Shown piece after piece: positions 11,851 through 13,880 of a DNA stretch of 64,000 nt. Below the pieces are notes generated by a model that was not told the origin of the DNA, made no database searches, and saw nothing but the letters and a program-made list of their open reading frames with translations. Origin of the DNA: an uncultured Acidovorax sp. (GTDB lineage: Bacteria > Pseudomonadota > Gammaproteobacteria > Burkholderiales > Burkholderiaceae_C); assembly GCA_913774955.1 (NCBI GenBank), contig CAJYKV010000015.1, positions 372,001 through 436,000 of the forward strand. Reading direction: 5' to 3'. A program made the translations under genes and the position numbers. How positions within the stretch are numbered: position 1 is the stretch's first letter; the number at the start of each line of letters is the position of its first letter.

Positions 11851-13158
11851 TCAGGCGAACAGAGAGGCCTGCACCGATGACGTGAGGCGGGCGCGCAGCC
11901 GTACTGGGTCGCGCAGCCGGTCCGCGGGACGGTGGTCGGCCACGGCCACGAAGGGCAGCACCCGGCCCAGGGGCACGTGCAGGCGGCCCAGATCGGCATG
12001 GCAGAGGCGGCGCACCCGGCGCGCGGCCAGCAGCCGTTCGACCGTGCGCACGCCCAGGCCGGGCACGCGCAGCAGCCGCTCGCGCGCGGCGGTGTTCAGG
12101 TCCACCGGGAACTGCTCCGGATGGGCGATCGCCCAGGCCAGCTTCGGGTCCATGTCGAGCGAGAGCATGCCGCTGCCGCCGCCATCCCCCGCCACCGGCT
12201 CCGGCGGCACGATCTCGTCGTGCGTGAAGCCGTAGAAGCGCATCAGCCAGTCGGCCTGGTAGAGGCGGTGTTCACGCACCAGCGGCGGCGCGGCCAGGGG
12301 CAGGGCGCGCGAGGCGTCGGGGATGGGGCTGAAGGCGGAGTAGTACACGCGCCGCAGGCCGTAGCCGCCATAGAGCCGTGCGCTCGCGGCGAGGATGGTG
12401 CGGTCGTCCGCGCCGTCCGCGCCGACGATCATCTGCGTGCTCTGGCCGCCGGGCGCGAAGCGCGGAGCCTCGGCGCGGCGCACGCGGCCGGGCAGGGAGA
12501 TGATCTGCGCATCGCCCGGGCGCTTGCCCTGCTGCTGCACGCGGGCCTGCCGGGCCTCGTCGATGTGCAGCGCCAGCCGGCCCATGGAGCGCTGGATGGC
12601 CGCGCCGTCCTTCTCGGGCGCGAGGGTGGCGAGGCCTTCCGACGTGGGCAGCTCGATGTTGATGCTCAGCCGGTCGGCATAGCGCCCCGCGCGCTCCAGC
12701 AGCTCGGGAGCGGCGTCTGGAATGGTCTTGAGGTGGATGTAGCCGCGGAAGTCGTGGTCCTCGCGCAGCGAACGGGCCACCTCCACCACGCGCTCCATGG
12801 TGTAGTCGGGGCTCTGGATGATGCCGCTGGAGAGGAACAGCCCCTCGATGCAGTTGCGCCGGTAGAAGTCGAGCGTGAGGTCGACCACCTCGCGCACCGC
12901 GAAGCGTGCGCGCGGCACGTTGCTGCTCACGCGGTTCACGCAGTAGAGGCAGTCGTAGCGGCAGTAGTTGGTGAGCAGGATCTTCAGCAGCGATATGCAG
13001 CGGCCGTCCGGTGCATAGCTGTGGCAGATGCCCATGCCCTCGGTGGAGCCGATGCCCCGGCCGCCCACCGAATTGCGTGCGGACGTGCCGCTGGATGCGC
13101 AGGACGCATCGTATTTGGCGGCGTCCGCCAGGATCGCGAGCTTGGAAGTGGTGTTCAC
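11851..13158 (-). CDS. TIGR03916 family putative DNA modification/repair radical SAM protein
   Basis: The 435-residue protein carries the radical SAM cluster motif CRYDCLYC (Cys66, Cys70, Cys73), then GLFLSSG and a TIM-barrel-like core. A helix-hairpin-helix DNA-binding motif follows at about 354-381 (LLRVPGLGVRTVERLLAARR). The last residues contain QASLF (430-434), close to the beta-clamp-binding consensus QL[S/D]LF. Start: GTG at 13158, because an in-frame TAA lies 12 bases upstream and the N-terminus (LAILADAAKYDASC) matches the family. No ribosome site precedes it. A perfect LexA box touches the start codon, so SOS control is predicted. The reaction is unknown; family knowledge and context point to DNA lesion processing. 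Confidence 0.86.
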   Translation of the reverse strand: MNTTSKLAILADAAKYDASCASSGTSARNSVGGRGIGSTEGMGICHSYAPDGRCISLLKILLTNYCRYDCLYCVNRVSSNVPRARFAVREVVDLTLDFYRRNCIEGLFLSSGIIQSPDYTMERVVEVARSLREDHDFRGYIHLKTIPDAAPELLERAGRYADRLSINIELPTSEGLATLAPEKDGAAIQRSMGRLALHIDEARQARVQQQGKRPGDAQIISLPGRVRRAEAPRFAPGGQSTQMIVGADGADDRTILAASARLYGGYGLRRVYYSAFSPIPDASRALPLAAPPLVREHRLYQADWLMRFYGFTHDEIVPPEPVAGDGGGSGMLSLDMDPKLAWAIAHPEQFPVDLNTAARERLLRVPGLGVRTVERLLAARRVRRLCHADLGRLHVPLGRVLPFVAVADHRPADRLRDPVRLRARLTSSVQASLFA

Positions 13159-13173
13159 TGTATTAATTTACAG
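13158..13173 (-). promoter_or_regulatory. LexA-binding SOS box
   Basis: CTGTATTAATTTACAG fits the LexA consensus CTGT-N8-ACAG exactly, with an AT-only core. Its last base on the minus strand is the first base of the GTG start codon of the radical SAM gene. It is the only such site I noticed in the window. If the -10 element is TGTAAA inside the box, transcription would begin at or next to the start codon, which would give a leaderless message; this last step is inference. Confidence 0.85.
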
Positions 13174-13229: not shown

Positions 13230-13769
13230 TCAGAAGGAGCTGCCCGGTTGCTTCAAAAACTCCGCTTCTTCCGGCGTGCTCTCGCGCCCCAGCACCGCAT
13301 TGCGGTGAGGAAAGCGCCCGAAGCGGTCCACGATCACCTGGTGCTGCCGCGCATAGTCCAGGTTGTGGGCCTGCCCGAGCCCCGTGAACAGCCGCACCGA
13401 TTCCGCCTGGATGGCCGCGGATTCACTGTGCATGAACGGCATGTAGAGGAACGCGCGCTGCTCGGGTGGCAGTTCCGCATCCAGCCCCTGGGCGATGGCT
13501 TCCTGGGCGAGCACGAGGGCCATGCCGTCCTGAGCGAACGATTGCGGGCTGCCGCGCAGCAGGTTGCGGGAGAACTGGTCGAGCACGATCACTTCGGCCA
13601 GCCGTCCCGCGGCATCCGTGCGCCAGGCCCACAGCTCGCCCCGGGCGGCCCGCGCATGCCACGCGTCGAAGCGCTTGCGGATGGCTTCGTCGAACGCATC
13701 GTCCTTCCGGAACCACTGTTCGGAGGTGGATTGGCGGAACCAGAAATCGAGCACGTCGTGGGCAGTCAT
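13230..13769 (-). CDS. DUF924 family protein
   Basis: The 179-residue all-helical protein matches the DUF924 (YPO1306-like) family, which folds like a TPR array. The hallmark start VLDFWF, the WFRKDDAFDEAIRKRF segment, IVLDQFSRNLLRG and the FLYMPFMHSE motif are all present. The function of the family is unknown. The ATG at 13769 is chosen because the family begins with this VLDFWF block; a longer frame upstream lacks similarity. It lies upstream of the LexA-controlled repair pair on the same strand with a 71-base gap, and the LexA box within that gap suggests separate transcription. Confidence 0.88.
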   Translation of the reverse strand: MTAHDVLDFWFRQSTSEQWFRKDDAFDEAIRKRFDAWHARAARGELWAWRTDAAGRLAEVIVLDQFSRNLLRGSPQSFAQDGMALVLAQEAIAQGLDAELPPEQRAFLYMPFMHSESAAIQAESVRLFTGLGQAHNLDYARQHQVIVDRFGRFPHRNAVLGRESTPEEAEFLKQPGSSF

Positions 13770-13880
13770 GGCAGGCAGTATCCGGCAGGCGGGCGGGGGG
13801 CGCAAAAAAGGCCCTGGCCGCGCGGGCGCGGTGCAGGGCCACCAGAGAGACATGAGGACGGATGCAGGGAGGGCTGGCGG

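Follow-up and report, generated by a model that had tools for sequence, protein, structure and literature searches.

The site and its gene context

The DNA analysed here (the window) is a 64,000-nucleotide stretch from an uncultured Acidovorax sp. (contig CAJYKV010000015.1, positions 372,001 to 436,000). On its minus strand it carries a gene of the TIGR03916 radical SAM family, whose GTG start codon is joined to a palindrome of the LexA-box type (Table 1). The palindrome, CTGTATTAATTTACAG (13158-13173), matches CTGT-N8-ACAG exactly, and its sequence and coordinates agree with those given in an earlier note made from the sequence alone. Read on the coding (minus) strand, the site is CTG TAA ATT AAT ACA GTG AAC ACC. 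The final coding-strand base of the box, 13158, is the G of the GTG (13158-13156), and an in-frame TAA lies upstream at 13170-13168, which confirms the fusion of box and start that the note had described.

The encoded protein contains a CX3CX2C motif at residues 66/70/73, whose three cysteines do not vary across an alignment of 35 proteins (own included). TIGR03916 is its sole NCBIfam match at E 0.001, and the spore photoproduct lyase model TIGR04070 is absent from its matches at this threshold. The TIGR03915/DUF4130 gene begins 1 nt past the TIGR03916 stop. On the other side, a DUF924 gene on the same strand stops 56 bp short of the box.

Table 1. Coordinates of the predicted operator, the start region and the neighbouring genes in the window
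Feature	Position	Strand	Remarks
LexA operator (predicted)	13158..13173	-	coding strand CTGTAAATTAATACAG; palindrome extends to CACTG...CAGTG; kept in relatives
Predicted -10 hexamer TAAATT inside operator	13165..13170	-	at -12 to -7, taking base 13158 as +1
GTG start codon, also the predicted transcription start (putatively leaderless)	13156..13158	-	
TIGR03916 radical SAM gene, 435 aa	11851..13158	-	NCBIfam 534.5 bits, cut-off 343.5
TIGR03915/DUF4130 gene, 293 aa	10968..11849	-	221.8 bits, cut-off 112.25; Pfam PF13566
DUF924 gene, upstream, outside predicted operon	13230..13853	-	Pfam PF06041

Conservation of the box

Taken by itself, the bare motif is not significant. CTGT-N8-ACAG occurs once in the window against 0.61 expected matches, at least one match was found in 45 of 100 shuffled windows, and the organism's own genome (4.78 Mb) holds 15 exact sites against 7 of the reversed pattern. 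A hand estimate from these genome counts puts the chance expectation for an upstream region of 100 bp at about 1.5e-4 sites. The case for the box rests on its position and conservation.

The first relative with a name in the genome comparison is Paracidovorax wautersii, whose best segment is 88% identical, and the own genome is presumably Paracidovorax-like. The TIGR03916 gene is present in 16 of 17 same-genus genomes (own included), and in all 16 the box is found with its attached GTG. The earlier note had named absence from close relatives as grounds for giving up its reading, and the comparison came out the opposite way. The one same-genus genome that lacks the gene (G010) has no such box-GTG element. 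In ungapped pairwise comparisons of the 16 loci, identity averages 0.94 in the box; it is 0.33 in a 76-bp stretch that starts 80 bp upstream, and 0.73 over the 44 bases immediately 3' of the box. Thirteen of the 16 box columns are invariant, including the AAATT that lies outside CTGT/ACAG. A count over 40 relatives (own included) gives 19 copies of CTGTANATTNNNACAGTG, 16 of them at the TIGR03916 gene, and a single one of its reversed control.

A rough inverted repeat, TGCTAT...ATAGCA, was noticed by eye upstream of the box in L006, L007, L008, L015, L016, L022 and L023; it was not seen upstream of the TIGR03916 gene of the window, where no search aimed at it was made.

Operators of orthologs in other genera and classes

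For more distant orthologs, operators were searched in the 160 bp upstream of the codon for an invariant lysine. L024, a weak match and not an ortholog, was excluded throughout, and L042, L045 and L075 were excluded as duplicates (of L018, L020 and L009). L083, with an upstream stretch of 16 bases, was dropped from the box counts but included in the UdgX/DUF4130 count given below. The classes of named loci were assigned from record titles, and any locus not placed in Burkholderiales, Methylovorus or Xanthomonadales was put with the Alphaproteobacteria; this includes L107, which its title places no further than Pseudomonadota. The 22 loci counted as the own family are placed in the Comamonadaceae presumptively, and the two Methylovorus loci (L001 and L064) were kept apart from the Burkholderiales counts.

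All 22 own-family orthologs carry the box, 19 of them perfectly and 3 with one mismatch. Among 24 further distinct named Burkholderiales, 13 boxes are perfect and 8 have one mismatch, leaving three loci (L047, L048 and L062) without one; the box is thus present with at most one mismatch in 43 of 46 Burkholderiales, compared with 0/46 perfect and 3/46 one-mismatch hits for the reversed pattern. The perfect box of L051 lies far upstream, at -82, and the one-mismatch box of L090 is doubtful, two analyses having chosen different places for it.

The Alphaproteobacteria have an exact GTTC-N7-GTTC or GAAC-N7-GAAC upstream of the gene in 31 of 34 loci (not in L093, L098 and L119), which we take to be the alphaproteobacterial LexA site. 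Both Methylovorus loci lack CTGT-N8-ACAG and contain a CTGAACGA.CGTAC stretch, presumably the noncanonical betaproteobacterial LexA site. None of CTGT-N8-ACAG, GTTC-N7-GTTC and GAAC-N7-GAAC occurs exactly in any of the 17 Xanthomonadales loci, of which 10 contain an exact GTCTCA-N5-TGAGAC and 4 a one-mismatch version, at -53 or -54; in the remaining loci, L067, L110 and L112, none of the searched operators was found, this palindrome included.

The type of operator follows the class while the same gene stays under one, and nothing speaks more strongly for a function of the box. Judged by its sequence, the operator retained before the gene in Burkholderiales and Alphaproteobacteria is a class-specific one of the damage type. 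The same argument from operator exchange has already been made for splB (PMC3323433; papers are cited here from partial text unless the main text is named).

The window's own genome has one lexA match, with a CTGTTTAAAAATACAG box upstream, and exact CTGT-N8-ACAG sites precede recA and imuA. The palindrome could be a functionless product of chance, given that the motif is expected 0.61 times per window and that about half of the 15 exact sites in the own genome may be chance; some of them probably are. Among same-genus loci, however, the box is conserved while its flanks have diverged, it is kept across genera, and the alphaproteobacterial site takes its place before the same gene. We rejected a chance match, which conservation in relatives contradicts, and give it almost no credence. 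The comparison strongly supports the SOS control claimed in the earlier note: the box is probably a functional LexA operator, the gene is very probably induced by DNA damage, and we are highly confident of SOS (LexA) control of the TIGR03916 gene.

Start codon and promoter

At -15 from the invariant lysine, the codon is GTG or ATG in 41/46 Burkholderiales, 17/17 Xanthomonadales and 32/34 Alphaproteobacteria, and as far as comparison can tell the GTG of the window would be the true start. Within the Burkholderiales this codon is GTG in 31/46 and ATG in 10/46, with the start elsewhere in 5/46. The last G of the box is the G of an in-frame GTG in 31/46 as well, a different set of 31 from that with GTG at -15. 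In L004, L009, L022 and L023 the protein has a longer N-terminus, yet the GTG is still that of the box.

As the earlier note had stated, no ribosome site precedes the gene. Its best duplex with the anti-Shine-Dalgarno (anti-SD) 9-mer is +0.9 kcal/mol, compared with -7.4, -8.2 and -6.9 kcal/mol for three neighbouring genes; of the remaining three among these seven hand-picked starts, that of the coupled downstream gene has +1.5 and the others have -3.3 and -2.8 kcal/mol, and the start with -8.2 was entered one base off. Duplexes of -4 kcal/mol or stronger precede the -15 codon in 0/22 loci of the own family, 3/24 further Burkholderiales and 28/34 Alphaproteobacteria.

A LexA palindrome has no need of direction. 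At the predicted -10 place of the box, TANATT is read on the coding strand in 37 of 43 loci and on the opposite strand in none of the 43 (17/23 and 0/23 when distinct boxes are counted). Of seven further boxes listed from the own genome (G000), four read TANATT in the same direction towards the gene; those of recA, lexA and dinG do not. The fused GTG, the missing Shine-Dalgarno (SD) sequence and the TANATT within the box favour a leaderless SOS transcript, and we lean towards a leaderless start at the G of the GTG. For the leaderless start suggested in the earlier note the support is indirect (a fused GTG in 31/46, no SD and a -10-like hexamer at the right distance), while a good -35 is mostly missing. 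The widest reading is that the 18-bp CTGTANATTNNNACAGTG unites LexA operator, -10, transcription start and GTG, serving repression, promoter and translation start at once, and that it marks a class of leaderless SOS mRNAs in Comamonadaceae, where the radical SAM-DUF4130 pair would act without UdgX. We regard this as evenly poised.

Several observations weigh against the leaderless operator-promoter. A consensus scan found no sigma-70 promoter, the -35 is poor, with at least 4 of 6 matching -35 positions in only 11/43 loci (8.6% in shuffles), and 10/46 Burkholderiales have ATG at -15, 15-40 nt past the box. Anti-SD duplexes of -4 kcal/mol or stronger are found in 0/17 Xanthomonadales too, where nothing is fused; because these loci likewise lack an SD, its lack is not specific to fused genes. 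Three Burkholderiales orthologs have no box at one mismatch, and the ortholog counts are of related sequences, not independent events. The lack of a good -35 for the in-box -10 and of a consensus promoter, as well as the ATG starts downstream of the box, would suit an arrangement in which LexA control is real and the mRNA has a short ordinary leader: the promoter would lie upstream, the box would act as a downstream roadblock and the GTG would merely be the nearest start. In the fused genes, however, the box occupies the place of the SD, TANATT keeps to one strand and, where fused, lies at -12 to -7 from the GTG. Where the protein start has shifted, the GTG has still stayed with the box, and the columns invariant among congeners include AAATT beyond CTGT/ACAG. 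We judge a short leader to be unlikely, if still worth entertaining.

A different objection is that translation begins at another codon, the ATT at 13167-13165, and that the GTG is internal; an in-frame ATT does lie 9 nt 5' of the GTG in 30 of 31 fused loci. ATT is a very rare start codon, and in Xanthomonadales and Alphaproteobacteria the ATG or GTG start stands exactly as far from the invariant lysine as the GTG does here, which makes an ATT start very improbable.

The gene pair and UdgX

A DUF4130 match was found in 103 of 103 loci (three of them duplicates), and its gene directly follows wherever the next reading frame was inspected. In 63 of 80 named loci, the frame of DUF4130 also contains a UdgX-type domain (TIGR03914): 34/34 in Alphaproteobacteria, 15/18 in Xanthomonadales, 14/27 in Burkholderiales and 0/1 in Methylovorus. 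The two domains form one fused chain in four scanned proteins. The Caulobacter vibrioides genome, included as a control, gives matches to TIGR03916 as well as TIGR03914. Among the 23 loci from the search of relatives' genomes, which have a flank of only 1.5 kb, a UdgX-type domain was found in 2. The partner gene of the window matches TIGR03915 only and not TIGR03914, the window has no uracil-DNA glycosylase (UDG) or UdgX domain as part of the operon in the manner of the COG1573-COG4277 type, and elsewhere in the own genome the only TIGR03914 match is below the cut-off (52.9 bits). Because lineages without UdgX keep both the box and the gene pair, the radical SAM-DUF4130 pair most likely works without UdgX.

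In profile searches against the PDB, nothing better than weak matches was obtained for TIGR03916 (best E 0.057); the targets were radical SAM cores, a helix-hairpin-helix protein and a single dehydrogenase. With the partner alignment, uracil-DNA glycosylase-type matches were obtained (6ail and relatives), in the UdgX part only. DUF4130 has been linked to SplB-like and UDG proteins, with a guess at modified thymines (PMC3765255). The earlier note had called the pair uncharacterised, which fits the biochemistry found in the literature; its LexA control, on the other hand, had already been predicted (PMC3828012, PMC8565304).

Proposed mechanism

Building on the directly observed sequence, position and conservation of the box, the exchange of operator type between classes and the gene order with its 1-nt gap, we propose that a LexA operator represses a two-gene repair operon consisting of the TIGR03916 radical SAM gene and the DUF4130/TIGR03915 gene. 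Bound LexA would cover the -10, the transcription start and the start codon together. Upon DNA damage, RecA-triggered cleavage of LexA would free the promoter for RNA polymerase, which would start at the G of the GTG and produce a leaderless mRNA, the second gene being translated by coupling. For repression and induction we draw on established LexA biology, whereas it is from the sequence only that we infer that the two genes are co-transcribed, where the -10 and the start site lie, and that translation is leaderless. The proposal as a whole, with a functional LexA operator, a two-gene repair operon and a leaderless start, appears quite likely to us.

Relation to known systems

For such a pair, LexA control is nothing new in kind, having been predicted in other phyla; we take COG4277 to be the same radical SAM family as the TIGR03916 gene. 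The CAC3343-CAC3344 operon of Clostridium acetobutylicum is likewise such a pair and predicted to be LexA-regulated, its TIGR03916 identity being by name only; it has the LexA site of a different phylum, and the excerpt mentions no box fused to a start codon (PMC3828012). In Bacteroidetes, a COG1573-COG4277 operon described as 'UDG base excision repair' and placed under LexA is likewise SOS-controlled, and it is cited for Verrucomicrobia and Alphaproteobacteria too (PMC8565304). In contrast to that operon, the partner here is without a UDG/UdgX domain and the operator is of the CTGT-N8-ACAG type.

This type is cited as the consensus of the betaproteobacterial SOS box in a study of Acidovorax citrulli M6 that reports such boxes before repair and 'radical SAM' genes (given there as 'not shown') and a plasmid umuD box spanning the start of the coding sequence; the excerpt does not name the radical SAM gene and contains no conservation or start-codon analysis (PMC6595937). 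Leaderless genes of B. cenocepacia have a TA-rich promoter motif directly upstream instead of an SD (PMC4603805), and the leaderless mRNAs of Cupriavidus metallidurans are enriched for replication, recombination and repair (PMC7563307); LexA does not occur in the main text of either paper. SplB (spore photoproduct lyase) and PA0069-type proteins are likewise radical SAM proteins linked to SOS (splB: PMC3323433, PMC8565304), but their family models differ from TIGR03916. The excerpts of PMC7739468 and PMC9380542 mention further LexA-linked radical SAM genes, which may or may not belong to TIGR03916, and those of PMC13384398 and PMC1839093 contain nothing on the TIGR03916-TIGR03915 pair.

Searches of the open-licence literature turned up no report of a TIGR03916 start codon with a LexA box fused to it. 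This layout is less expected; it seems to be a conserved variation on a control already predicted elsewhere. The comparison ties to SOS, without leaning on one motif, a radical SAM repair pair that is widespread and has no tested function that we could find. At this site one could readily find out whether leaderless SOS genes exist in Burkholderiales, and the lineages that keep the pair without UdgX separate the roles of its parts.

Further sites in the own genome and its relatives

Three further CTGTANATTNNNACAGTG sites open reading frames (L187, L198 and L199). A random GTG in the window is open for at least 137 codons 43% of the time, because of which three open frames out of three are not significant, and we dropped them as independent support; for these sites only the identity between the L198 and L199 proteins speaks. 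L199 (also L031; G000:C20:91210-91635, minus strand) is a small reading frame divergent from an SRAP-like gene, its GTG fused to CTGTATATTTAAACAG, and an exact site lies between the two in the own genome. The SRAP-like assignment is a reading of MCNRY, with no good model match. The protein of L198 (G004) is 47% identical to that of L199 from residue 1 and has the same box-GTG fusion, which is seen in 2 of 30 genomes.

Elsewhere in the own genome, an exact LexA-type box lies just 5' of the start of another radical SAM gene, which belongs to the PA0069 family (L025, G000:C1:9618-9633). An exact CTGT-N8-ACAG covers the start-codon region of a dinG-like gene (L027, G000:C15:79604-79619), which is cut by the locus end and scores 460 bits, under the model cut-off of 598. 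Near G000:C24 position 239882 (L035), repeats with GTCGCGCCCCGTGCGGGCGCGTGGGTTGAAAC resemble an array of clustered regularly interspaced short palindromic repeats (CRISPR), and the LexA-like match there is probably chance.

A palindrome in Xanthomonadaceae

GTCTCA-N5-TGAGAC looks like a further, previously unrecognised DNA-damage operator. It occurs exactly in 41 of 60 Xanthomonadaceae genomes, compared with 0/60 for the reversed control. Upstream of TIGR03916 it was seen in L063, L065, L068, L070-L072, L076, L079, L087, L092, L108, L111, L115 and L117, and it is also found among L122-L137 and L149-L178. There it precedes matches to recA (L156), dnaB (L174) and a PA0069 radical SAM gene (L128), as well as uvrA (L124) and a TIGR03817-like helicase (L158, L161), these last two being under the cut-off and cut by the locus. 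By reading alone it also precedes more such helicases, mraZ and rmuC; L178 has no model match, and still other sites (e.g. L126, L130, L172, L173) adjoin genes that are unrelated or lack an identification. Of seven lexA matches above the cut-off, in four genomes, four have a TTAG-type site and two a TGTACAAATGTACA site at the start, and L140 has a one-mismatch GTCTC site. Such a one-mismatch site is also present at L147, a UmuD-like gene below the cut-off.
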